IMG/VR virus record: IMGVR_UViG_3300032285_000863
Location: 1-49,494 of that record
Length of the DNA: 49,494 nt
Reading direction: 5' to 3' (one strand)
From: a virus
Shown here: in pieces, positions 12,403 through 30,147 of the stretch
Layout of the letters: each line of letters starts with the position of its first letter
Position numbering within the stretch: the first letter of the stretch is position 1
Program-made: the position numbers and the translations under genes
The notes under the pieces: model-generated
Databases searched by the model: none
What the model was told of the DNA's origin: nothing
Seen by the model: the letters and a program-made list of their open reading frames with translations, nothing else

Positions 12403-15400
12403 ATGGATGTCTTGATGCCGGATGGCACCACGATTACTGGTGTTCCTGAAGGAACTACTAAGGCCGAGTTACTTGCTCGTTATACAAAATACACTGGTGC
12501 AACTGAACCAGCTCAAGGTATTGCTTCATTAGCACCAAATACCATGACTGCTGACCAGTACAGGCAACAAATTGCCGCACGGGATGAGCAAGGCTACGAC
12601 AGAACATTTGGCGGTTCAGCTATAGATGCTGGCGTTACTGCGCTTAAGGCCGCAATAGGATTGCCTGAAGCGTTTGTTGGTCTGGCTGATATACCTTCAT
12701 TTGGTTATGCTGGCAAGATCCTTGAGAACATGGGTTACAAGCCCAAAGAAGCCAAAGAGATCTTAGACACCTACTTGTCTGAAGCACAGCAAGCGGCCAA
12801 CCGCCGCGTAAAAGAAAAGCAAGGCTTTCTTCCAACTGTTGGTGCGGCTCTTCAAAACCCAAGCGTTATTGCTTCCTCAGTAGGCGAGTCTATTCCTCAG
12901 ATGTTGGGTGGCGCTAGCGTTGCCAGAGGCTTGATGAAGGCCGCCCCTGCGGTTGCCCCATGGTTAGCCGGTGCTCTTGGTGAAGGTATCATTGGAGCTG
13001 GTGGTGCTGCCGAACAAATTCGCCAAGAATCTAAAGACAAATTGCTCAGTGGTAAGCAAGTGTTGTCTGCCCTTGGTTCTGGTGCTGGTACTGCGGCGTT
13101 TGGTGCGGCGGCTGGACGTCTGTCTAACAAGCTAGGCTTAGGTGACATTGACACACTATTGGCCGGTGGCGCTGGTCAGGGTGGAGCTAAGTCAGTCAGA
13201 GACTTTGCCAAGAAAGCAATTGGTTCTGGTATATCTGAGGGTGTGTTTGAAGAGTTGCCACAGTCTGCACAAGAGCAGATGTGGATGAACTACGCCACAG
13301 ACAAGCCAATCATGGACGGTGTTGCAGAAGCGGCTGGTATGGGCGTGGTCACTGGTGCGGCCATGGGTGTTGGCGCTACCGCGCTACAAGGACGCAGGCC
13401 ACAACAACCCGCTGGTTTGCCATCTGTAGCTCCAGAGACACCGTTAGCTCCTCCAGTATCTTCGCCAGAGGCTGGGATTGCCGCATTGGTACCTCAACCA
13501 CCAGCTCCACCAGCCGCGCCTCCTGCTGTAGCTCCAGTGGCCGAGGAAGCGCCAGCTCAAGATTTAGAAGCTATGCTCAAAGAAGCATTGGCCGCAACGG
13601 GATCTGATATTAACACTGTTAATATGCCCAAAGCTGAAGAGCCTGCTAAAGCTCCCGCGCCTGTATCTCCTGAAGAGCCTCCATCTACTCAGTTACTTAA
13701 AGAAGTTCTGCCAGAGCCTACAGCCAAAGAACGCCCAAGCTCACCTGTGATTGTGAACGGCATTATTGATGGATGGCAAGGTTCTGCTGACAAACTGCCA
13801 GAGCAAACCCGTAATTGGATGACCGAGAACGGCCTTATCCAAGGCAAGAACACAACCCCACTGGGTCAGCGTTTGATGGACACCATCAAGCAAGCCGAAG
13901 AACAGCACAGAGTAACAGAGGGTCTTAAAGGCGTAGAGGCTATGAAGCGTGGCGAAAGAATGCCACCTCCAGCGTCTATGACCACCGAACAAGTGGATCA
14001 GGTGGTCGATCAGTTCATTGCGGCTAACAAACCCAAACCTGTGGCCAAGCCAGCCGCCCCTGCCGCGCCAGCTGTTAATCCTAAAGTCCAAGAGTTCTTG
14101 GTATTGGAGAATCAGAGCCGCGAGAACAGAAAACTAAAGCCATTGACTTATGAGCAAGCGCTTAAAGCAATTAATGATGATGTTGAAAATGACATGGAGT
14201 TTGGCGACTTTAATACTTCCGCAAAGAGGATGGTTGAAGAAGCTAGAGGCCGACTTGAATATGATGCAGAAATAACAGCTCCATCGTCTACAGTTAACAT
14301 TTCCAAGACCGGAGAAGCTTTAAGAAACAAACCCTTTGTACCTGATGAGCTAGATAAGAAAGCCATTGAAATCTACAAAAAGATTAAAGCGGCCAATCCT
14401 GAAGCTGACGTAGATGAACAAATAGCCAACCCCAATAGATTCCACCCTGTTGCAGAAGAAAAAAACAGCAAAGGCATCAAGATTGGTGATTTGGTTTACA
14501 GAAAAGGCGAGTCAGAACCTGACATTGTCACTACTGTTTACAACGATAGGGTTAAATTAACTGACAGGAAGACTGGCAATAGTGGCTTTGAGAACATAGA
14601 TCTTGTCAGCAAAGAGCCAATCCCATACGACTATAAGTTTAACTTTGGCTATGGTGACATTGAAGTCAATGTTAACGAGTGGAACAACAACAAGAACGAA
14701 TGGCAGTTCAGTATGTATGGCCCCGGAGCCAGCGATACGGGGTTCCGTTCTGAGCTGGGGATTTATTTTAAAGGTACGCCCGGCACCAAAGCATTTGATG
14801 ACTTTGTTGAATCGGTTGTCAGCAGAAGCACGGCAGATCGTCCTCAACAGATAGCTAAAGCAAAGAAAGAAGCCGAAAAGAACATGACTCCTGAACAGCG
14901 CAAACAGCGCAGGGAGCAGGAATTAGCGGCTGATAAAGAACGCCTAGCAAAAGAGTCTGCTGAGTCTGATGAAAGAATTAAAGCTAGGAATGAGCTGCTG
15001 GGTGAAATTCAGGAGCACATGAAGAAAAACAAGATTGGCATCTACTCGCCAATGCCTTCGCTAAAGACAGCGATGGAGACAATCGAAAAGCTCAAGAAGG
15101 GCAACAAAACTGACCCCCGAGCTGAAGGCTGGATGAAAGGTCAAGGCATCATTTGGACGCCTGAAAAGAATCCGCAGTTCACCCGTATGGGTAAGCGGTT
15201 TGTGCAAGAGGTGTACAAACTTAACCAGAAGTTGACTGAAGAGCAACGTGCTTCTGGCACTGAGGACGCTACTGTCCTTAAGGCCGCTGTAGACAAAGCC
15301 AATGCCATCACTGATAAAGAGCGTAAGAAGGCTATTGCTGACAAACAGAAGGCAATTGAAGCCCAGAACATTGACAAAGCCAAGATAGAGCAAGCTGACC

Positions 15401-18400
15401 AAGACATTGAAAAAGCCTTGGGTGATTTGGCTATGCTGATCACAAAGGGTACACGCCTAAACATGATGCCAGAGGATGAGCAAAAGCTCATGCCTATCCT
15501 GACTACATTGATGGATGCGTCATTCCGCAAGGGTTACTACAAGTTCAAGGAAGCCGCCCGTTATGTGATGGATCTAATCCGTTCACAGTTGGGTCATGAC
15601 TTTGCTGATGAGATCACTTTGGATCAACTCCAAGGTGCATACATTGGTATGGCCGGTAGATACCAAGACCAAGGCGCAAGCTCCAAGAAGGAAGTTATTG
15701 CTATTGAGTCTTTGGCAGAGATTGACGAAGTTGCTGGTGAAATAGAAGTTGGTGAGGTTGATATTAACAACCCATCTGAGCAATTTGAAGTAGCTCAAAA
15801 CCTTGCACAATTCTTCATGGAAGATGGCGAGTTTGCCAACATCAATGAAGCTCGTAAGATGATTGCCGACATGACTGGGCAAGACATCAAGCCTGGCACT
15901 AAAGAATCCAAAATGGCAGATGAAGCCATTGAGGCCGGTGTAGTCATGGCCGCGCGCAACATTGTGGATGCTGGCCGTCAAGACAAACTTACCAGTGCGC
16001 AGATCTATGACAAGTTGGTTGATCTCTATGAGCGCCAGCCAAACCTAAGTGGCCGTAGTTCTACGAGTATTGCCCAGCAAGCCTACTCTACACCTGCACC
16101 ATTGGCTTATGTAGCCTCTGAGCTGGCTGGCATCAATAAGAGCACAGTGGTTTACGAGCCTACAGCTGGTAACGGGATGCTGTTGATTGGTGCTACTGAA
16201 GACAACATCATTGCCAATGAGTTAAACAAAGACCGCTATGAGATGCTTTCACGCATCCTAGAAGGCTCTGAGATTGGTAATGAGAACGCGCTTGACTCCA
16301 ATGTCAAGGGTGCTGACTTTGATGTCGTGATTGAGAACCCACCTTTTGGTAAAGCTGGAAACATTAGCGACATTGACCACGCTATTGCGATGCACTCTCT
16401 TGAGGGTATGAAGGACGATGGCCGTGCTGTCTTGATCTTGGGTGGTGTACAGGCCAACACAGAGGAAGGCCGCCGTGAGGGCTATCGCGGTAAGGCTAAA
16501 CGCGAGTTCTACTACAACCTCTATAACAAATACAACGTTGTTGACCACTTTACAGCTGGCGGCAATATGTATGCAAAGCAGGGCACAACATACCCTGTGG
16601 ACGTCATCGTCATTGATGGCGTAGGCAAATCGCAGCGTGACTTACCGGCGGCAGATCTGCCCCAGTTGATTACGTCTTACGAACAATTGAAGGAGAAACT
16701 AAATGATCGCATGGTATCCAGAGGAGATCGTGGCACCGGCAGAGCTGACAGTGGTGTTAGTGCCAAAGGGGGAGTTGAGCCAGAAGGAGTGGGTCGAGGC
16801 GCTGTCGGACAGGGTGAACAGCCTAGTGGAGAAAGAGGAAGACCCGCTGGAGGCGGCGAACGAGGCGTGTCGGAACCTGAGTCTGCCCGAGGTGGACAGC
16901 GCGAACCAAGCGGGGGACGCACTGGTGAGGTACAACCTGAACCTACTGACGAATCTAAACGTGCTACAGAAGGAAGACCTGTTCCCAGCGAAGGTAAGCG
17001 AGGAGAAGCCGGCGGCAAGACAGGCGCTGAAAGACGTAAGCCTAGCGAACTGGGTGGAGTTAGCGTTGTCTCAGGTGAGCGTGTCGGATCTGGACTAACA
17101 GAGCGCGCTATAAAGGAAGAGGAAACCAGTAATCAGGTTTCTTACATTCCGCATTCACAGGCTACAGCTGTTGGTACGCTGGTGCCTAAAGCCATGGCTC
17201 AAGCCATTGAGGACTCCATCTCCCGTGTAGAAGCTGAAGTTGGCAACATTGATGAGTTTGTTGCTGAACAGCTTGAGATGGATCCAGAAACCCTGCGCGA
17301 GCAGTTCTCTGCCGAACAAATTGACGCATTGGTCTTGGCCATTCGCAATGCTGAAGAGGGTAAGGGCTTCATCATTGGCGATCAAACTGGCGTGGGTAAA
17401 GGCCGTGTCGTTGCAGCCATGATTAAGTACGCCTTGATTAATGGCAAGATCCCTATCTTTGTTACTGAAAAGCCCAACTTGTACTCGGACATGATTCGAG
17501 ACTTGGACGATATTGGTATGACGGATGATCTTGGTTTGGACACAACCAGATCAAAGATCTTCATGACGAACGGGGATGTAACTGTTCCATACACTTTGAT
17601 TCGTCAAGTCAAAGGCGAAGCAGTTGAAAACAATTTGATCCTTAGACCGGCAAAGTCTGATGGTCTTGATGCCATCATGAAACAGATGGTGAAAAACGAC
17701 AATCTTGGAAACTTCAAGGTTATCTTCACAAATTACAGCCAACTGCAAACAGTTAAAGGCAAGCCCACAGAGCGTCAAGCTTTTATCAAGCACTTTGGTG
17801 CTGGCAACTACATGATCTTTGACGAGAGCCATAACGCTGGCGGAGCTGGTGTAGAGCCGTCTAAGGCTGAAAAAGATGCTGGCGTCAACATTGGCCAAGG
17901 ACGATCTGGGTTTGTTCGTGAGTTGGTCAAAAACGCATTTGGCACATTCTTCTCATCGGCCACATACGCCAAACGTCCTGATGTGATGGACTTGTATTCC
18001 AGTACTGATATGAGACTGGCCGTGGATAACATCACCCAGCTGTCAGACGCGATCAAAGCTGGTGGTATTCCAATGCAGCAGACTGTGGCCAATATGCTGA
18101 CAAAGGTTGGTCAGTACATTCGCCGTGAGCGTACCTTTGCCGGTGTGGCATACAACACCCAAGAGGCCAAGGTTAATAAAGCTACAGCTGAAGACATGGC
18201 CACATCCATGCGCGACATCCTTGCTTTCTCACGCGAGAAAGAGGTTATCGTTAAGGATCTGCAGAAGTCTTTGGACACCAAGGGATCAAGAGCCGCCATT
18301 CAGACCGAGAAGACCACAGTTCAGGGTGCAAACTTTGGCTCGAATATGCACAGTCTGATTGACCAAATGCTGTTGTCTTTGAAAGCTCAAGATTCTATTA

Positions 18401-21400
18401 ACCATGCAATCGAGAGATTGAAAGCTGGTGAGAAGGTTGTTTTGACTGTGTCCAATACCATGGGCGCGTTCTTAAAAGAATACGCCGATGAAATGGATCT
18501 TAAGGTCGGTGATCCCATTAATATGTCGTTTGCTGACCTGTACATTCGTTACTTGGAAAAGCAACGCATGGTTACGATTAAGAAGCCAGGTGGGTTAAAA
18601 GAAAAGTACCGCCTGACTGACGAAGATTTGGGTGAGAATTTAACCAATCGCTACAACGAGATCCTTGATTTCATTCGTAACGCCAACTTTGGTTCTGCCC
18701 CAGTTTCTCCAATTGATTACTTCCACAGTGAATTGCGTAAAGTCAAAATTAAAGGCTTGGATGGCAAAGAGCGTAACGTAACTACGGATGAGATTACAGG
18801 CCGTACAGTTTCTGTGAGCTATGAAGGTGGTAAGGCTTTGTTGGCATCACGTTCTAGCACGATTAAGCAACGGGTTAACGCTGTTAAAGCCTTTAATAAT
18901 GGTGACACTGACGTTATCATTTTGAACCAAGCTGGCTCTACTGGTTTGTCTTTACACGCTAAAGCATCATTCAAAGATACGCGCAAACGCCACATGATCA
19001 TTGTTCAGGCTGAGAAGAACATTGACACCCATATGCAGATGCTTGGCCGTGTGCACCGCACTGGTCAAGTTATCCCGCCAGCCTACTCACAGATGATGGC
19101 TGACATCCCAGCTGAGATGCGTCCTGCAGCCGTTTTGCTTAAGAAGATGGCATCCCTGAACGCTAACACCACCGCTTCGCGTAAGTCTGCCGTGTCAGCT
19201 GAAGGCACTGTTGACTTTATGAATGAATACGGCGGTCAAATTGCACAGGAATATTTGCGCGATAACCCAGAGGTCTACCAAGAGCTGGGCGGCGAGAAGG
19301 TTGCCAAACTCAAAGACAATACTGAAGATGCTGGCGAAGAGGACATTCGTAAGCTGACTGGCTATATTCCAATCCTGCCAATCAAACAGCAGGAAGAAGT
19401 CTACAGAGACTTGATCGAGCGTTACAACGATTTGATTGAGCGCGAAGACAGCATGGGCTCCAACAAGTTGGAAGCCAAGGCTATGGACTTGGATGCCCAG
19501 ACAGTTAGCTCCAAGCCAATCACCGAAGATAAGGGTGATCCATCTTTATTTGCCCAGCCTGCCTATATGGAACAGGTGGATGTCAAGCGCACAGTTAAGC
19601 CTTACTCTAAAGCTGAAGTGCAGGAGATGGCGAAGGACAGCAAAGAAAAGATCAAAGACGATCCTAAATATACATTTAGAGAAATTGATGCCAAAGCAAA
19701 AGCATATGCTGATGAACAACTAGCAGATGCCCAAGCTCGCGGAGCTGACCCAGTTCGTATTGCCGCCATTGAAGGCCAGATCAGAACACAGCGTGAGCAC
19801 GTTAAAACCATCCTTCTCAATTATGGGATTGGTACTCGTTTGGCCATCAAGAACACCAATGGCGTGTTTGTGTATGGCGTAGTAACTGACATTGAGAACA
19901 AGGGTAAAACCAAGAACCCAGTGGCTGGCTCTGACTGGAAGATGACGATTGCCCTTGCTAATGGTGATGCCAAGTCTTTGCCCCTGACGTTCTCTCAGAT
20001 CGGCACTCGTTATATGTTGACTGCACAGGATGAAGTGCAGTATCTCAACCCAGAAACATTGCAAAACGAGTTGATCTCATTGATGGATTTGTTTGATCGT
20101 GGATCTACTGTTCGCCGTGAGAAACGTTGGATGGTGACTGGCAACATTTTGGCTGGTTTTGCTGCGGTCAATAACATTGGTCAGATCATTACGTACACTA
20201 AGAACGATGGTACGACTGGTCAGGGCGTGTTAATGCCACGCACGTTTGACTTTGAGAAGGAACAGAAGAATGCTCCCATCAGACTCAAGACAACAGCCGA
20301 TGTCATGCAATTCTTTGACACCTTTCCAAAGGGCGGAACAGTATCAACACCAGACTTTGTTTTAAAAATCAAGAGTGAAGGCTATGGCAAGTTTTCATTT
20401 GTCACGCCTAGCGCCAAGCGTGAAGGCGGCACATTCTTCTTAGACGATAACCTCATCAGGCTCATTGGCCAGTTCTACAAGCGGGGCTCAATCATGTCCA
20501 CTGTTGCTTATGACAGGGACAAGATCGAGAAGGCTGTTGATTACATCTTGAAGGGTCGTCAAGACTCTTTGGTTGTGGCAAGCAACAAAGATGAAGCGCG
20601 TGAGATGTTTGCGCCTAAAGACATACCGTTGTCTAGCATTAAGTTTGACAACGAGAGGTTGAGCATCAATCCGGCCATGAATATTGCCATGGATCGTGAA
20701 GCTTTGATCCGTCAGTATCAGTCTGTACGTCAGAAGAGCGCGGCCATCTCAGCTAAGTTTGCCAAGGGTGAGGCAGGGTTGGATGAGCAGAAAGCTTTGA
20801 CTTTCCTAAAGCAAGCTTCTAACGATTTGAAAGACAGCATTGAAATAACCAAGCCATCAGGCCGTCTTGCTAAGAACTTCTTTGCCAAGGCCACTGCTGA
20901 CTGGAATAAAGATCTGATCAGTGATGACGTTTATGACGTTATCAGAACTTTGCATGACAAATATCCAGAAGTCTTGGAAGGCCTGCAGTTTTCTATTAAG
21001 AAACAGCCAGAAAGCAAGTCAGTTATTGGTGACTTCTTTTCCTTCCAGCGTATTGTGCGTCTGTACAAAGGTACAACTGGCGTAACAGATCCAGAAACAA
21101 TCCGCCATGAGATTGTTCACAGCCTTGAGCAAATGATGGATAGGCCGGCTGCAAAGGCTTTGGTCGATGCTTGGTCTGATAGCTTGGGTAAAGCAATCAA
21201 AGCTGAGAAGTCAGCTTCTGGCCAGCGGTACTTCCGTGCTGTGCTTGAGATGCTCAATAACCCAAGCCAAGAAACCTACCAAAACGCCATCAATGTTTTG
21301 CCTTCAATGAAGTATTACCAGTATCTGAACCCATCAGAATACTGGGCTGTTAACGCTGAGAAGCTGATGGCGCGTAAGCTTGGCACAGGCTGGGATAAGT

Positions 21401-24339
21401 TTGTGCTGGCAGCCAAGCGTTTGTTTGAAGGTCTAAAGTTCATGTTTGGTTTTGATAACCGTTACATTGTTCAAAGAACCTTTAACGACATTATGAACAG
21501 CCGAGAAGAGCGATTTACAACTCGTTCTTTGAATGACTACATTACCCAAGAATCTATTCCCTTGTCCAACATGGTCAAGAACTTTAAGGGTGGCGAAGGC
21601 GCATTGGCCACTTGGGATTCTGCTGAAGACACTAACCTTGCCAAGATGCAGTACCGCATTGTTGACAAGCAAGTTGATACCCGCATGGTGGTTAAAGCAA
21701 TCACTGAGCAGATTGGCGATATTAGAGATCAGCATGACCCGTCTTTGCAGGAAACGCTGTATCACAGCTCTAAATCTAGCAAAATTGAGGACTTCTTAAA
21801 GAAAGAATTGCGTCCATTGGTTGAGAAGATGGAGAAGATGGGCGTGGAGTACCGCGACTTTGAGCACTATCTTCATATGCGTCATGCCAAAATTCGTAAT
21901 GACATCGTGGCCAAGCGTAACCCAGCCATGCCAGACGGCGGCTCGGGCATCTTTAATGAAGAGGTTGATGACTACTTTGCCGGCAAAGACAACTCAAAGT
22001 TAACACCGGCCGATGAGGCCAAGTACAAAGAGTTGGCTGAGACAGTAGATAACTGGATTAAAGAAACCCAAGACTTGCTAATCTCTTACGGCCTAGAGAA
22101 GCCTGAGACTATTGCCGCATGGCGCGAGAAGCTCCCCTTCTATGTTCCTTTAAAGCGTGATCCAGATGAGCTGGACTACGTGACTCCAGGTTCTGGATTG
22201 GGACAAGGCTTTGCAACTCGCGGTAACTTCTCTAAGTCTGCCACCGGCTCGTATAAGACTGTCGTTGACGTTCTAGCTAACATTGCCCTCCAGCGTGAGA
22301 GCGCCATCATCCGTGGTGAGAAGGCCAAGGTAGGCCGTGCTCTGTATGCTTTGGCCATTCAGAACCCAAATCCAAACTTCTGGAAGCCCGTTAACCCTGA
22401 CGCTATTCGCAATAAAAAGAAGCTCAAAGCAGAAATGGAAGGTTTTGACCTGACGTTGGCCGAAGCTGATGCCTTGTTTGCAGAGCCATCTTCACCACGT
22501 ATAGACCCAGCTACTGGCTTGGTTGAGTACAAAGTTAACCCTGCGCTGCGAAACTCACCCAACGTGTTTGCCGTGCGTGTAAATGGTGAAGACCGATTCA
22601 TATTCTTTAATCCGGGCGAAGTCCGTGCCAAGCGCATGGCAGAAGCCTTAAAGAACTTGGATGCCAATCAGTTAGAAGGTGCTTTGGGCACAGTAGCTGA
22701 AGCTACCCGCCTGATCGCGGCCATGAACACCCAGTACAACCCTGTGTTTGGTGCATGGAACTTTGCGCGTGATGCTGTGGGCGGCACCATTAACTTGGCC
22801 AGCACAGAGATTGCAGACAAGAAAATGCAAGTTCTGTCTGGCTCTATGCCTGCACTCAAAGCAATCTATACCGATCTGCGTGAGTTAGATGCCTCCGATA
22901 TTTCTAAATCACAGAAAGAATGGATTGAGCTGTGGAAACAGTTCAGGGATATTGGCGGTATCACTGGCTACAGCGAGCAGTTCAGCCGTGCCAAAGACAA
23001 AGCTTCTATTGTTGAGCGCGAAGTAGCTCGTTTAGATCGCGGTAATGCCCGTAAAAAGGCAGATGCCGTCATGGAATGGCTGTCTGACTATAACGATGCC
23101 ATGGAAAATGCCGTGCGTTTGTCAGCGTTTAAAGCTGGTTTAGATGCCGGCATGACACCCCAACGTGCGGCCGCTTTGGCCAAGAACCTGACTGTTAACT
23201 TTAACAAAAAGGGTCAAGCCACTGCCAATGCGAATGCCCTGTATGCGTTCTTTAATGCTCGCGTCCAAGGCACAGCTCGCATGATGGAAGTCATGTTCCA
23301 AGATAAAGATGGCAAGATCACAATGACTGCCGTTGGCAAGAAGATTGTTGCCGGCGGTATGTTGTTGGGCTCAATGCAAGCTTTGATCTTGATGGCGGCA
23401 GGATTTGATGGCGATGAACCACCAGACTTCCTCAAAGACAAAAACTTGATCTTGCCTACGTTTGGTTTGGGTGGTGAGAAGAAGTACCTGATCGTCCCCA
23501 TGCCTTTGGGCTGGAACGTGTTCCCCAACATTGGCCGTGAGCTGACTGAGTATGTCTTGATCAACTCACACGCCATGAAGGGCAATCGCAAGATGGCTCA
23601 GACAGTTACCAACATTACAGGCCAGATCTTTGATATGTTTAACCCTCTGGGTGCTGGCAGTGCGGCCAACTTCTTTACGCCTACGATTGCAGACCCATTT
23701 GTTAATGTGTTTGGAACCAATAAAGATACCTTTGGACGGCCAATCTCAAGGCAAGCTCGGGAAGACAAACCAACTCCGGGTTGGGAGCGCAGCCGAGACA
23801 ATTCCACCAAGTTGAGTAAAGCCATAGCTTATGGCCTGAACTACTTGACTGGCGGTGGTGAGCATGGCATCGGTCTGGTAAGCCCCACTGCTGACCAGCT
23901 TGATTACCTTGCAAAAGAGTATGCCGGCGGTGTTGGCCGTGAGTTGACTAAAGCGGCTAGGTTTACTTCTAACTTAATCTCTGGTGATGAAACCCCATCA
24001 TATGGAGTTCCTATCCTTGGTAAGTTGTATGGATCTGCTGTCGAGCCTTCTGCGGTGGCTGACAAGTTCTATAAGAACATCAAAGTCATGGCAGAGTTTG
24101 AAGGAACCATGAAGCGGATGAAAGAGTCCAAAGTCAGTACATCCGAGTTTATGAAAGATCAACCAGAGGCTAGGTTAGTCAAACGGGCTAATTATGTTGA
24201 GAATGAAGTGGCTAAGTTCAACAAGGAACTCCACGCCATGCACAAGCGTAATGCCTCTGAGAAAGACATTAAAGCCAAAAAAGAGCAAAGGGATAAGGTA
24301 ATGAAGGCTTTCAATAACGAAGTCAGCAGAGCCCAATAA
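12403..24339 (+). CDS. Giant polyvalent protein: methyltransferase, SNO/DarB-like helicase, HExxH motif, LPD38-like end
   Basis: A 3978-residue protein with AGGGG before the ATG. Domains in order: N-terminal DVLMPDGTTITGVPEG module; Gly/Ala membrane-active-looking region, residues 140-330; Pro/Ala linkers; N6-adenine methyltransferase with motif I EPTAGNG at 1252-1258 and NPPF at 1312-1315; Gly/Arg/Glu linker about 1435-1565; Strawberry-notch-type SF2 helicase with Walker A GDQTGVGKGR at 1659-1668, DESH at 1807-1810, SAT at 1852-1854, GSTGLSLHA at 2178-2186 and LGRVHRTGQ at 2214-2222; HEIVH at 2902-2906, a zincin-like motif with E2979 or E2986 as possible third ligand; LPD38-like region from about 3435 (GAWNFARDAVGGT) to about 3800. 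The MTase-helicase pair matches P1 DarB-type antirestriction proteins, which are injected with DNA. Polyvalent proteins of this build are known from phages and conjugative elements. The protease role is inference. Confidence 0.9.
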   Translation: MDVLMPDGTTITGVPEGTTKAELLARYTKYTGATEPAQGIASLAPNTMTADQYRQQIAARDEQGYDRTFGGSAIDAGVTALKAAIGLPEAFVGLADIPSFGYAGKILENMGYKPKEAKEILDTYLSEAQQAANRRVKEKQGFLPTVGAALQNPSVIASSVGESIPQMLGGASVARGLMKAAPAVAPWLAGALGEGIIGAGGAAEQIRQESKDKLLSGKQVLSALGSGAGTAAFGAAAGRLSNKLGLGDIDTLLAGGAGQGGAKSVRDFAKKAIGSGISEGVFEELPQSAQEQMWMNYATDKPIMDGVAEAAGMGVVTGAAMGVGATALQGRRPQQPAGLPSVAPETPLAPPVSSPEAGIAALVPQPPAPPAAPPAVAPVAEEAPAQDLEAMLKEALAATGSDINTVNMPKAEEPAKAPAPVSPEEPPSTQLLKEVLPEPTAKERPSSPVIVNGIIDGWQGSADKLPEQTRNWMTENGLIQGKNTTPLGQRLMDTIKQAEEQHRVTEGLKGVEAMKRGERMPPPASMTTEQVDQVVDQFIAANKPKPVAKPAAPAAPAVNPKVQEFLVLENQSRENRKLKPLTYEQALKAINDDVENDMEFGDFNTSAKRMVEEARGRLEYDAEITAPSSTVNISKTGEALRNKPFVPDELDKKAIEIYKKIKAANPEADVDEQIANPNRFHPVAEEKNSKGIKIGDLVYRKGESEPDIVTTVYNDRVKLTDRKTGNSGFENIDLVSKEPIPYDYKFNFGYGDIEVNVNEWNNNKNEWQFSMYGPGASDTGFRSELGIYFKGTPGTKAFDDFVESVVSRSTADRPQQIAKAKKEAEKNMTPEQRKQRREQELAADKERLAKESAESDERIKARNELLGEIQEHMKKNKIGIYSPMPSLKTAMETIEKLKKGNKTDPRAEGWMKGQGIIWTPEKNPQFTRMGKRFVQEVYKLNQKLTEEQRASGTEDATVLKAAVDKANAITDKERKKAIADKQKAIEAQNIDKAKIEQADQDIEKALGDLAMLITKGTRLNMMPEDEQKLMPILTTLMDASFRKGYYKFKEAARYVMDLIRSQLGHDFADEITLDQLQGAYIGMAGRYQDQGASSKKEVIAIESLAEIDEVAGEIEVGEVDINNPSEQFEVAQNLAQFFMEDGEFANINEARKMIADMTGQDIKPGTKESKMADEAIEAGVVMAARNIVDAGRQDKLTSAQIYDKLVDLYERQPNLSGRSSTSIAQQAYSTPAPLAYVASELAGINKSTVVYEPTAGNGMLLIGATEDNIIANELNKDRYEMLSRILEGSEIGNENALDSNVKGADFDVVIENPPFGKAGNISDIDHAIAMHSLEGMKDDGRAVLILGGVQANTEEGRREGYRGKAKREFYYNLYNKYNVVDHFTAGGNMYAKQGTTYPVDVIVIDGVGKSQRDLPAADLPQLITSYEQLKEKLNDRMVSRGDRGTGRADSGVSAKGGVEPEGVGRGAVGQGEQPSGERGRPAGGGERGVSEPESARGGQREPSGGRTGEVQPEPTDESKRATEGRPVPSEGKRGEAGGKTGAERRKPSELGGVSVVSGERVGSGLTERAIKEEETSNQVSYIPHSQATAVGTLVPKAMAQAIEDSISRVEAEVGNIDEFVAEQLEMDPETLREQFSAEQIDALVLAIRNAEEGKGFIIGDQTGVGKGRVVAAMIKYALINGKIPIFVTEKPNLYSDMIRDLDDIGMTDDLGLDTTRSKIFMTNGDVTVPYTLIRQVKGEAVENNLILRPAKSDGLDAIMKQMVKNDNLGNFKVIFTNYSQLQTVKGKPTERQAFIKHFGAGNYMIFDESHNAGGAGVEPSKAEKDAGVNIGQGRSGFVRELVKNAFGTFFSSATYAKRPDVMDLYSSTDMRLAVDNITQLSDAIKAGGIPMQQTVANMLTKVGQYIRRERTFAGVAYNTQEAKVNKATAEDMATSMRDILAFSREKEVIVKDLQKSLDTKGSRAAIQTEKTTVQGANFGSNMHSLIDQMLLSLKAQDSINHAIERLKAGEKVVLTVSNTMGAFLKEYADEMDLKVGDPINMSFADLYIRYLEKQRMVTIKKPGGLKEKYRLTDEDLGENLTNRYNEILDFIRNANFGSAPVSPIDYFHSELRKVKIKGLDGKERNVTTDEITGRTVSVSYEGGKALLASRSSTIKQRVNAVKAFNNGDTDVIILNQAGSTGLSLHAKASFKDTRKRHMIIVQAEKNIDTHMQMLGRVHRTGQVIPPAYSQMMADIPAEMRPAAVLLKKMASLNANTTASRKSAVSAEGTVDFMNEYGGQIAQEYLRDNPEVYQELGGEKVAKLKDNTEDAGEEDIRKLTGYIPILPIKQQEEVYRDLIERYNDLIEREDSMGSNKLEAKAMDLDAQTVSSKPITEDKGDPSLFAQPAYMEQVDVKRTVKPYSKAEVQEMAKDSKEKIKDDPKYTFREIDAKAKAYADEQLADAQARGADPVRIAAIEGQIRTQREHVKTILLNYGIGTRLAIKNTNGVFVYGVVTDIENKGKTKNPVAGSDWKMTIALANGDAKSLPLTFSQIGTRYMLTAQDEVQYLNPETLQNELISLMDLFDRGSTVRREKRWMVTGNILAGFAAVNNIGQIITYTKNDGTTGQGVLMPRTFDFEKEQKNAPIRLKTTADVMQFFDTFPKGGTVSTPDFVLKIKSEGYGKFSFVTPSAKREGGTFFLDDNLIRLIGQFYKRGSIMSTVAYDRDKIEKAVDYILKGRQDSLVVASNKDEAREMFAPKDIPLSSIKFDNERLSINPAMNIAMDREALIRQYQSVRQKSAAISAKFAKGEAGLDEQKALTFLKQASNDLKDSIEITKPSGRLAKNFFAKATADWNKDLISDDVYDVIRTLHDKYPEVLEGLQFSIKKQPESKSVIGDFFSFQRIVRLYKGTTGVTDPETIRHEIVHSLEQMMDRPAAKALVDAWSDSLGKAIKAEKSASGQRYFRAVLEMLNNPSQETYQNAINVLPSMKYYQYLNPSEYWAVNAEKLMARKLGTGWDKFVLAAKRLFEGLKFMFGFDNRYIVQRTFNDIMNSREERFTTRSLNDYITQESIPLSNMVKNFKGGEGALATWDSAEDTNLAKMQYRIVDKQVDTRMVVKAITEQIGDIRDQHDPSLQETLYHSSKSSKIEDFLKKELRPLVEKMEKMGVEYRDFEHYLHMRHAKIRNDIVAKRNPAMPDGGSGIFNEEVDDYFAGKDNSKLTPADEAKYKELAETVDNWIKETQDLLISYGLEKPETIAAWREKLPFYVPLKRDPDELDYVTPGSGLGQGFATRGNFSKSATGSYKTVVDVLANIALQRESAIIRGEKAKVGRALYALAIQNPNPNFWKPVNPDAIRNKKKLKAEMEGFDLTLAEADALFAEPSSPRIDPATGLVEYKVNPALRNSPNVFAVRVNGEDRFIFFNPGEVRAKRMAEALKNLDANQLEGALGTVAEATRLIAAMNTQYNPVFGAWNFARDAVGGTINLASTEIADKKMQVLSGSMPALKAIYTDLRELDASDISKSQKEWIELWKQFRDIGGITGYSEQFSRAKDKASIVEREVARLDRGNARKKADAVMEWLSDYNDAMENAVRLSAFKAGLDAGMTPQRAAALAKNLTVNFNKKGQATANANALYAFFNARVQGTARMMEVMFQDKDGKITMTAVGKKIVAGGMLLGSMQALILMAAGFDGDEPPDFLKDKNLILPTFGLGGEKKYLIVPMPLGWNVFPNIGRELTEYVLINSHAMKGNRKMAQTVTNITGQIFDMFNPLGAGSAANFFTPTIADPFVNVFGTNKDTFGRPISRQAREDKPTPGWERSRDNSTKLSKAIAYGLNYLTGGGEHGIGLVSPTADQLDYLAKEYAGGVGRELTKAARFTSNLISGDETPSYGVPILGKLYGSAVEPSAVADKFYKNIKVMAEFEGTMKRMKESKVSTSEFMKDQPEARLVKRANYVENEVAKFNKELHAMHKRNASEKDIKAKKEQRDKVMKAFNNEVSRAQ
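13607..13625. repeat. Dispersed palindrome, copy 2 (intragenic)
   Basis: The same 19-bp palindrome as copy 1, ATATTAACACTGTTAATAT, in the same reading phase. It encodes GSDINTVNMPKAEE in the proline-rich linker at about residue 402 of the giant protein. Identity with copy 1 extends to 26 nt (from CTGATATT to ATATGCCC), although the surrounding protein sequences are unrelated. Confidence 0.8.
16703..17098 (+). CDS. Embedded overlapping gene within the giant gene (+1 frame)
   Basis: An ATG at 16703, preceded by AAGGAG with 7 nt spacing from AGGAG, opens a 131-residue reading frame shifted +1 from the giant gene. It ends TAA at 17096-17098. The product looks like a normal folded protein: a beta start (PAELTVVLVPKG), then helices (LSQKEWVEALSDRVNSLV, RYNLNLLTNLNVLQKEDLF) and a conserved-looking end VSLANWVELALSQVSVSDLD. 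Over the same bases the giant protein reads as low-complexity Gly/Arg/Glu linker between methyltransferase and helicase. The contrast suggests two proteins from the same DNA, with the linker free to vary. Function unknown; possibly a partner of the giant protein. Confidence 0.65.
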   Translation: MIAWYPEEIVAPAELTVVLVPKGELSQKEWVEALSDRVNSLVEKEEDPLEAANEACRNLSLPEVDSANQAGDALVRYNLNLLTNLNVLQKEDLFPAKVSEEKPAARQALKDVSLANWVELALSQVSVSDLD

Positions 24340-28313: not shown

Positions 28314-28772
28314 ATGATTAAGATTGGAATAGATCCTGGCCTGTCTGGCGCCATAGTCATCATGGATGGGCACACTCCAGTTGCGTGGTATCGGATGCCA
28401 ACAATGAAGACGGGCTCGGCCAATCGTGTGAATGCGCCGGCGTTGGCTGCAATCATTCGGCCATCAATTTACGGGGAAGAGATCAAAGCGTATGTCGAGC
28501 TGGTGGGCAGTATGCCCGGCCAAGGCGTGGCCTCGATGTTCTCGTTCGGCCACTCAGCTGGTGTGATCCAAGGTGTGCTTGGTGCGTTTGAGATTCCTGT
28601 GACGATGGTGACACCCAGTCAATGGAAGAAGCGCGCGGGTCTGGTGGGGCAGGACAAGGATGCTTCAAGGACATTGGCCATACGGATGTGGCCAAAATGG
28701 CGTGAGCTGGACAAAAAGGGTGCAGGCCAAGCGTATGCTGATGCAGCTCTGATTGCATTCCATGGAGATTGA
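28314..28772 (+). CDS. RuvC-like Holliday junction resolvase
   Basis: A 152-residue protein starting at ATG 28314 (MIKIGIDPGLSGAI), with GGAAG upstream. RNase H-fold acidic residues are D7 in IGIDPG, E62 in YVELVGSMPGQG, and the C-terminal D of AYADAALIA. WPKW-R and the GVASMFSFG block are as in phage RuvC relatives. It should cut branched replication or recombination intermediates before packaging. It is transcribed divergently from the recombination operon and is followed by a terminator. Confidence 0.85.
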   Translation: MIKIGIDPGLSGAIVIMDGHTPVAWYRMPTMKTGSANRVNAPALAAIIRPSIYGEEIKAYVELVGSMPGQGVASMFSFGHSAGVIQGVLGAFEIPVTMVTPSQWKKRAGLVGQDKDASRTLAIRMWPKWRELDKKGAGQAYADAALIAFHGD

Positions 28773-28828
28773 TGTAGAATAAATTCCGGTAACCTGCAGT
28801 TGCCATCTCCTTTGTTGGATTGTCCTTA

Positions 28829-28858
28829 CCCCCGGGCTAATCACTCGGGGGCTTTTTT
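28829..28858 (+). terminator. Rho-independent terminator after the RuvC-like gene
   Basis: CCCCCG (28829-28834) and CGGGGG (28846-28851) form a 6-bp GC stem with an 11-nt loop, followed by C and six Ts. Confidence 0.85.
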
Positions 28859-28876: not shown

Positions 28877-29300
28877 CAACACACATGAGCATTTGGGCGC
28901 TGAAACGTAAGGCGAACTAACCCAGAACCGGGAAGCCACAGTACACGCGGTCACTGTGGTAGGAAGACGGGGAAAGAAGTGCTCAGTTGTGTTGGTGGAT
29001 GCGTAGACTGATGCGACAGACCAAAGACACTCGGATGCTCGGCGCTTTGCGTTGGCAAGTCCCTTAACGACATCTTGGAGCTCTAGTAGTCAACCCTTGT
29101 CTTTCGAGGCTGGGGAAGCCGGAGATTAGTGCCGGCCACCAACAACTAACACGCATGGGGATTGACTCCGAGAGTGCCGGAGCTTTGAAGGGCAGTGCCC
29201 CCTATCAGTCCCCAGCCGTGTTGGTGGTAAGCGGGTTAGCGCCGCTTGTAGTTTCCTTAGTTCGGTTTTTACAAGTCACTGCTTCATGTGCCCACTAACA
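28877..29300 (+). ncRNA. Candidate large structured RNA (unassigned)
   Basis: No gene is seen from 28773 to 29338; this part is dense in complementary segments. Long stem: 28877-28891 with 28980-28994 (7 bp, 2x2 internal loop, 6 bp), enclosing hairpin 28936-28942/28953-28959 (CCACAGT/ACTGTGG). Next: 29023-29029 with 29098-29104 (AAAGACA/TGTCTTT); 29108-29116 with 29209-29217 (GGCTGGGGA/TCCCCAGCC) enclosing hairpins GCCGG/CCGGC, CTCCG/CGGAG and GGGC/GCCC. CCACCAACA at 29136-29144 can pair with TGTTGGTGG at 29219-29227, forming a pseudoknot, or with another copy at 28990-28998. The last hairpin is 29229-29234/29242-29247 with loop GTTAGCG. Strand is inferred from neighbours, ends are approximate, and I do not recognise a family. 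Confidence 0.45.
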
Positions 29301-29338
29301 ATCTAAAAGCGACACCGTGTCGTATTTGAAGGGTCATT

Positions 29339-29602
29339 ATGATGTTTCAACCAGAGCACCTTGCGCCCGCTATCAGAGCTGGACGTAATGCATTGAACTG
29401 GACTCAGCAAGAGATGGCTGAAAAGTCTGGTTTATCTTTACCTACGATTGCCAGAATTGAAACCAGCAACAATCCAAAGATGGAAACGGTGTTGGCGTTG
29501 TTCAGAGTAATGGCCAATCACGGGGTATCTTTCAAATGGGAAGAGCAGGGTTTTGCCATGAATGCAAATTTTTTACAAAACCAGTTGACAACTACAGACT
29601 AG
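29339..29602 (+). CDS. Cro/C1-type HTH regulator
   Basis: An 87-residue protein starting MM (ATG at 29339 or 29342) with GAAGGG upstream. Helix-turn-helix: AIRAGRNALNWTQQEMAEKS then GLSLPTIARIETSNNPKMET, followed by VLALFRVMANHGVSFKWEEQ. This is the single-domain XRE pattern with no oligomerisation or peptidase domain. It stands alone between two gene-less structured regions, so it is a plausible regulator of the early operons or a ligand of the nearby palindrome (inference). Confidence 0.85.
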   Translation: MMFQPEHLAPAIRAGRNALNWTQQEMAEKSGLSLPTIARIETSNNPKMETVLALFRVMANHGVSFKWEEQGFAMNANFLQNQLTTTD

Positions 29603-29643
29603 TAGTGTTCAAATATGTTTGTTGCTGTAGTGAGCAATGAATT

Positions 29644-29747
29644 AGGCCACTTTAATGTGCGTTTCGCTTTACCTAATGCTTTCGGTCGGAGAGTCATTAG
29701 GCAAGGTCACTACCGAAGCGCACACTTAAGTGGCCTTTTTTGTTTTT
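29644..29747 (+). terminator. Very long hairpin with U-tract (terminator or small-RNA 3' end)
   Basis: AGGCCACTT (29644-29652) pairs with AAGTGGCCT (29728-29736). Pairing continues inward with two single-base bulges to about 22 bp (to 29666/29714). Inside lie CCTAATG/CATTAGG (29672-29678/29695-29701) and CTTTC/GAGAG (29679-29683/29689-29693). The sequence after the stem is TTTTTT-G-TTTTT. It would end transcripts from the HTH gene. The size and stacking are far beyond a minimal terminator. Confidence 0.7.
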
Positions 29748-29843
29748 GGGACTGAGTCGGGTGGTGGGTTAGCGCCACCACAGATGTAACCATCGGACGA
29801 AATGCTAAAGCACCACTGCTTTATGTGAGCCGATTCAGTCCCA
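29747..29843 (+). ncRNA. Cloverleaf-like structured element
   Basis: A 14-bp closing stem with one G-U pair (29747-29760 with 29830-29843) encloses three hairpins. These are 29761-29767/29775-29781 (GTGGTGG/CCACCAC, loop GTTAGCG), 29783-29786/29791-29794 (GATG/CATC, loop TAAC) and 29806-29812/29817-29823 (TAAAGCA/TGCTTTA, loop CCAC). It is not a tRNA, since arm and loop lengths do not fit and there is no T-loop. The GTTAGCG loop and the box CACTGCTTTATGTG at 29814-29827 recur at 29235-29241 and 29277-29290. Confidence 0.5.
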
Positions 29844-30030
29844 CCCTCTACGGCAATCGTCAGAGCGCGTTAGCTAATGACCTGTATGGGTTGAACTCAA
29901 AGAACACAAGAACCTCGGCGTGACCCGCGCCTCTGAGTAGAGCAATCGAAAAGAATAAACAGCGATGTCGAAAGACACATACCCCATGGTTGCACCCAAA
30001 AGTGCAGGGAGGGCGGATTGGCATTCCGTT

Positions 30031-30114
30031 AGTCAACATAAAAACTTGACAATGCTCGCTGATAAAGAGTCGTTGACTGTCCTACACCTACCCTCTGGGG
30101 GAGGGAGGGTCAAC
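30031..30114 (+). promoter_or_regulatory. Possible alternative-pairing (attenuator-like) segment
   Basis: GTTGACT (30072-30078) can pair upstream with AGTCAAC (30031-30037) or downstream with GTCAAC (30109-30114, with inner CCCTC/GAGGG). The two pairings exclude each other. A small AAGAG/CTCTT hairpin follows at 30119-30130. Apart from this, 29844-30147 shows no gene, and I see only weak hairpins there. Confidence 0.3.
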
Positions 30115-30147
30115 GGGTAAGAGGGCTCTTAAGTGGTAACATAACAG

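Follow-up and report, generated by a model that had tools for sequence, protein, structure and literature searches.

Within one environmental virus record, two copies of a hairpin loop, GTTAGCG, sit on different stems, each followed by a box reading CACTGCTTYATGTG, on either side of a gene for an HTH transcriptional regulator. The record (IMG/VR IMGVR_UViG_3300032285_000863) was analysed over its whole length of 49,494 nucleotides, hereafter the window. This arrangement raises the question of whether the motifs belong to an RNA structure kept by selection and, if so, what such an RNA does for the phage.

Architecture of the two copies in the window

An earlier note, made from the letters of the window, had described these hairpins and boxes, and all of its coordinates proved exact. 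The two motifs are parts of a larger unit, a domain of about 90 nucleotides that we call E, in which an outer helix overlooked in that note, P1, encloses the GTTAGCG hairpin (P2), a variable linker and a second hairpin (P3). The box, correctly placed, is itself this second hairpin, CAC-TGCTTYAT-GTG, and its central pair covaries. The parts of both copies are as follows.

29220..29299, plus strand: E copy 1, from P1 to P1' (covariance-model match 29209-29310, 60.1 bits, E-value 5.4e-15)
29220..29227, plus strand: 5' strand of P1 of copy 1, GTTGGTGG, pairing with 29292-29299 in 8 pairs, one of them G-U; the helix covaries in relatives
29229..29247, plus strand: P2 hairpin of copy 1, AAGCGG-GTTAGCG-CCGCTT (sequence, covariance-model match)
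29277..29290, plus strand: P3 hairpin of copy 1, CAC-TGCTTCAT-GTG, box CACTGCTTCATGTG (sequence, covariation of relatives)
29292..29299, plus strand: 3' strand of P1 of copy 1, CCACTAAC (sequence)
29339..29602, plus strand: HTH transcriptional regulator gene, between the E copies and outside the RNA (PHROGs phrog_8, E-value 3e-7)
29747..29843, plus strand: E copy 2, whole (covariance-model match 29743-29847, 68.7 bits, E-value 1.8e-17; fold z -3.83)
29747..29760, plus strand: 5' strand of P1 of copy 2 (inverted repeat I3 with 29830-29843, 93% complementary)
29761..29781, plus strand: P2 hairpin of copy 2, GTGGTGG-GTTAGCG-CCACCAC (sequence, covariance-model match)
29814..29827, plus strand: P3 hairpin of copy 2, CAC-TGCTTTAT-GTG, box CACTGCTTTATGTG (exact pattern match)
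29830..29843, plus strand: 3' strand of P1 of copy 2 (inverted repeat I3)

The heptamer GTTAGCG alone is unremarkable, with 6 matches in the window against 3.8 expected. The box, also unremarkable taken singly, has only two exact matches there, those of the two copies; what stands out is the two strings together. A covariance model made from 34 varied sequences, window copies 1 and 2 included, likewise matches the 49.5-kb window at these two places only. Copy 2 folds much better than shuffled sequences (z = -3.8). Copy 1 on its own does not (z = -1.05), and its structure therefore rests on comparison with relatives.

The two copies flank the HTH gene here and in a close relative with a similar HTH gene (L303), but this is not the general arrangement. 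That relative holds three E copies in one cluster (1505-2267), two of them in tandem before the HTH gene and one with the loop GTTAGCT.

Covariation, strand and loops

Pattern scans contradict by a wide margin the outcome that would have refuted the earlier note, a lack of copies in other genomes, and a large independent sample bears out the earlier reading that a loop kept on a stem that changes yet still pairs marks selected RNA structure. The covariation score of P1 and P2 is 0.625 in an alignment of 34 distinct sequences and 0.569 in one of 57, compared with 0.19 and 0.17 after shuffling, and none of 500 shuffles scored as high as the real alignments. All three helices covary, with 77% of cells paired as against 53-54% in shuffled alignments, and the signal is lost when the helix partners are slid against each other. 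P2 pairs are standard in 96% of cells of the 34-sequence alignment and 92% of the 57-sequence alignment.

P3 behaves in the same manner. Its central pair is A-U in 26 of the 57 distinct sequences, G-C in 18, C-G in 7 and U-A in 6. Where both bases are changed from A/T, 121 of the 122 matches listed, which include contigs that are near-duplicates, still form a Watson-Crick pair (G/C 59, T/A 45, C/G 17, unpaired 1). At helix positions with Watson-Crick pairs on both sides there are 26 cases of G-T and two of A-C; tolerance of G-T but not of A-C identifies the strand that folds as the transcribed sense RNA.

The same asymmetry speaks against the notion that E is a DNA site, an origin or a signal for packaging or recombination that folds as single-stranded DNA or a cruciform. 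Each phage record tends to hold one site, often near terminase or replication genes, as such a site would. The strand that matters is nevertheless the transcribed one, and neither the exact start at +1 described below nor the sense orientation is explained by a DNA site, a reading we consider highly improbable.

Conservation in E is essentially confined to the loops of the two hairpins and a few letters beside them. With one E hairpin held fixed and the loop of the other left free, 89 of 96 sequences have GTTAGCG as their P2 loop and the rest have TTTAGCT, GTTAGCT or GTTAGCA, so that the core TTAGC (UUAGC) is invariant in all 96 of these looser samples; a single instance of GCTAGCG lies outside this sample (L277). 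The P3 loop is nearly always the octamer TGCTTYAT, and its recognisable variants retain TGCT and AT with one exception, TACTTTAT. The loops are complementary, AGC of P2 to GCT (GCU) of P3, and almost all loop changes fall outside this pairing. Patterns in which both partners were changed gave either no match or four near-identical matches that are not E. Since the members of the candidate pair thus do not covary, a kissing contact between the P2 and P3 loops is something we infer, partly supported by their complementarity and by the parallel with a second module, D.

Module D precedes copy 1 and follows the same plan, an outer helix around two hairpins, with the loops RCUGAU and AUCAGY. At the R/Y position of these loops, 13 non-redundant copies carry G/C (10) or A/U (3) and no mismatch, in a small sample with shared ancestry found by a loose pattern whose matches were filtered by their stems. 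The covarying loops of D support kissing as a design principle of these RNAs. A third module, S, abuts copy 1, and a hairpin RNA ending in a T-run precedes copy 2:

28991..29143, plus strand: module D, with P1 GTTGGTGG/CCACCAAC around two hairpins with complementary loops, ACTGAT and ATTAGT (pattern search, loop pairing)
29149..29221, plus strand: module S, in which ACACGCATGGGGATTG (29149-29164) pairs with CAGTCCCCAGCCGTGT (29206-29221) and a variable insert forms the cap; it abuts copy 1
29621..29745, plus strand: hairpin RNA with a T-run after it, directly upstream of copy 2; the helix 29644-29666/29714-29736 is inverted repeat I1, and the order is shared with relatives

E is thus a real and common folded RNA unit of phages, previously uncatalogued; it is portable and most likely acts in cis.

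Occurrence and genomic setting

The E fold recurs in hundreds of other freshwater phages, often heading a main gene group. The pattern GTTAGCG-(30-60 nt)-CACTGCTTYATGTG matches at least 120 IMG/VR contigs per scan and 9 stretches of GTDB genomes, part of which look like chance or contamination. Among whole records, 26 of 30 carry one E and the remaining 4 carry two, always as a close pair. Where a host can be given a name, it mostly falls within the Burkholderiales (Curvibacter sp. CHRR-16, Achromobacter dolens, uncultured beta proteobacteria). E is rare in the host genomes searched, with 2 of 399 in the order Burkholderiales, 6 of 401 in the Curvibacter family and 3 of 369, two of these weak, in a class-level search. 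E belongs to phages of Burkholderiales and perhaps of related bacteria too. In Curvibacter sp. CHRR-16 (L126, 3196-3454), E has gyrA on one side and on the other a divergent gene of 781 aa that matches nothing in Pfam; this site apparently does not belong to a prophage.

BLAST of the window region against cultured phages gave no match. The cultured Acidovorax phage ACF1 nevertheless carries E (55.5 bits; reached through L123). There it has terL on one side and the adaptor/portal genes on the other, and lies close to the 3' end of some 700 nucleotides that open with a tRNA-Ala and in which no protein gene is annotated. Three assemblies named Aeriscardovia, Vreelandella and Clostridia (L122, L123 and L124) hold an identical E and are related to the portal genes of ACF1; E in these is probably contamination by one phage.

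E takes up a recurrent position relative to predicted promoters. In 69 of 184 non-redundant loci (about 37%), a -10-like hexamer starts 11-13 nucleotides before P1, compared with a control mean of 7.3 and maximum of 16 over 200 draws, and 17 of these 69 also have a perfect TTGACA at a spacing of 16-18 nucleotides, against 0.1% in the control. In these loci P1 therefore starts at about +1 of a predicted sigma70 promoter. Besides these promoter-placed loci, E abuts module S in 35 further loci and follows a T-run in 16.

In 135 of 183 loci the first predicted gene shares the strand of E; frequently this gene heads an operon, encoding a terminase small or large subunit, Cro/YdaS, a primosomal or O-like protein, a primase-helicase, RecT or an exonuclease. 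The first genes downstream share no single protein family, which points to a partner of E in the host; tblastn of the commonest downstream protein matched only distant phages. E often lies 25-55 nucleotides before the start codon, and many copies lie 150-1000 nucleotides from the next gene. A few loci have a terminator within 150 nucleotides downstream of E, and maps of 14 phages, used as a proxy for antitermination, give no visible excess of internal terminators along the operons downstream. In class-c loci, the window included, E stands after a terminator-like hairpin and not before it.

The window belongs to the array type, with D and S before copy 1 and the terminator-like hairpin before copy 2. 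More than 450 nucleotides of noncoding sequence surround E in 64 of 164 loci (about 40%). Of 185 non-redundant loci, 58 have S-type motifs no more than 900 nucleotides from E; the S helix carries compensated changes.

Several neighbouring stretches of the window have features of their own. The hairpin RNA at 29621-29745 is possibly preceded by a sigma70 promoter, with TTGACA at 29585-29590, a spacing of 18 nucleotides and TCAAAT at 29609-29614; this promoter and the RNA start were read by eye, and a promoter scan gave no match there. Within 29585-29745, a pseudoknot is possible between the 5' GTAGTGA of this RNA of about 120 nucleotides and a TCACTAC inside it; by eye, relatives such as L014 seem to preserve the pairing in different letters. 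At 28767-28858, a -10-like TAGAAT at the end of a RuvC-like gene precedes a short RNA that contains CUCC and, after it, an intrinsic terminator, an order kept by several relatives; the stretch weakly matches the Betaproteobacteria toxic small RNA RF02278 (19.4 bits, gathering threshold 50). After copy 2, 29848-30140 is a conserved noncoding tail (TCAGAGCGCGTTAGCTAATG... and a GATGTCGAAAGACACATACCC stretch) common to L014, L026, L041 and L118, and is probably part of another structured RNA.

Comparison with known RNAs and possible roles

Rfam release 15 (4227 families) has no match at gathering threshold over E, S or D in the window or over E in 32 other loci, and at an E-value of 5 or below the window gives only sub-threshold, chance-level matches. 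The models of GOLLD, ROOL and OLE match neither the window nor 32 related loci. A survey of the literature on phage leader RNAs and ornate RNAs, mostly in sources other than subscription journals and preprints, found nothing like E. E is therefore without an Rfam family, and an earlier description may exist elsewhere.

The purine riboswitch is a three-way junction in which P1 closes two hairpins with kissing 7-nucleotide loops, and E resembles it in that its P1 closes two hairpins with pairable loops. It differs in having unrelated downstream genes, no Rfam match, and a junction and linker that are not conserved, which argues against a ligand pocket of the purine-riboswitch kind. Betaproteobacteria-1 RNA (RF02932), an unexplained family, shares a noncoding stretch with E in L018 (1481-1598, minus strand, 101 bits, 0.6 kb downstream of E) but is a separate element without a match to E. 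It stands there directly after a hairpin-terminator, the place of E copy 2 in the window, and L018 seems to hold a tRNA-like 3' end as well. A tRNA-like sequence with a large insertion also lies downstream of E in L034 (3327-3442, minus strand, 33.7 bits).

GOLLD and ROOL assemble through intermolecular kissing loops (PMC12286853). Like the E arrays with their putative kissing loops, they are long structured noncoding RNAs of phages; unlike them, E arrays consist of recurring small modules, and E also occurs as a lone mRNA leader. Nor are the arrays generally near tRNAs: an association with tRNA islands as in GOLLD/ROOL was considered and dropped, ARAGORN finding tRNAs in only 2 of 55 E loci.

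Phage HK022 has two put sites, putL and putR, in different operons. The put RNA is about 70 nucleotides long, has two stem-loops, lies next to PL and acts on RNA polymerase without a protein factor, and putL sits at the start of the transcript, much as P1 of E does at about +1 (PMC9378689). Both put and E are cis RNAs of phages of similar size with two stem-loops, placed (for putL) at the 5' end of an early transcript, and no dedicated phage protein is evident. E differs in its enclosing helix P1, its complementary loops and its usual single site per phage. The early 5' location applies to part of the E loci, others heading a late (terminase) operon or sitting in arrays. A covariance search of HK022 gave only a 10-nucleotide chance match (8.4 bits), and E was rejected as a homologue of put; the likeness is one of layout only. 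Membership of the put family would further entail suppression of downstream terminators and binding of the RNAP beta' zinc-binding domain.

The best overall explanation, which we put forward tentatively, is that E is a portable cis RNA that docks to a host component and exerts a put-like effect on the polymerase. Loops that do not vary while phages, neighbouring genes, G+C content and helices change would offer a conserved component of the host a surface to dock on. E would work in cis from the 5' end of a main transcript of the phage or close to that end, and as its likeliest target we would guess the elongation complex of RNA polymerase, which, once bound, would run on through pauses and terminators of an early or late operon as with HK022 put. 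Applied to the window, this would make copy 1 a mark on RNAs that run into the HTH gene and the terminator-like hairpin (29644-29745), and copy 2 a mark on RNAs that run into the early/replication operon further downstream. The put-like action itself is a leading guess, and a rather doubtful one. Counting against it are the lack of a match in HK022, the lack of a visible terminator excess in the 14 maps, the single E or close pair in most records, the class-c loci in which E follows the terminator-like hairpin, and the noncoding embedding of about 40% of loci, which a simple antiterminator does not need.

That last embedding is what one would look for if E were a structural brick of ornate phage RNAs, with arrays of E, D and S folding through kissing loops and helical joints into a particle or scaffold and lone-E leaders being reduced or borrowed forms. 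Such a role would accord with the recurrence and covariation of S and D, with the complementary, covarying loops of D on the plan of E, with the long, tRNA-adjacent noncoding stretch of ACF1 and with the manner in which GOLLD and ROOL assemble. Most loci, however, have no long array, many E copies stand directly before a gene, and the rarity of tRNA neighbours and the absence of GOLLD, ROOL or OLE matches also tell against this unlikely alternative. The promoter-placed loci can also be read as 5'-terminal stabilisers, in which P1 at +1 would hide the 5' end from RppH/RNase E and the loops would block or recruit a decay factor, giving a long-lived mRNA; an outer helix retained although its sequence is free fits this. 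A plain stem would suffice for that purpose, leaving two near-invariant loops superfluous, and many loci, both window copies included, are not at a predicted 5' end, so that we regard this role as unlikely. More doubtful again is a translational switch or riboswitch-like leader that would gate the ribosome-binding site of the next gene. The frequent short distance to the start codon and the enrichment of CTCCT and TCCTT in the linker speak for it, but sequestration of the SD by the linker is disfavoured (its complementarity averages -8.01 with the own gene, no better than the -7.82, sd 0.36, obtained with swapped genes), the downstream genes have no common pathway, and many copies lie far from the next gene.

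A wider view, possible but far from assured, is that Burkholderiales phages share a toolkit of interchangeable RNA bricks (E, D, S and others), which may serve as single leaders at +1 or form long arrays that, as an RNA machine or as a scaffold, work on some conserved part of the host. The modular E/D/S arrays bear on the role of large, ornate phage RNAs. E is common in environmental phages, is absent from Rfam and keeps its loops unchanged even between very dissimilar phages, which suggests that phage transcripts touch a host machine in a way not recognised so far. The two loops, the helix, the cultured phage ACF1 and the defined +1 position offer targets for testing this.

Elsewhere in the window, 12403-24339 is a single open reading frame of 3978 aa, unusually large for a phage of about 50 kb.
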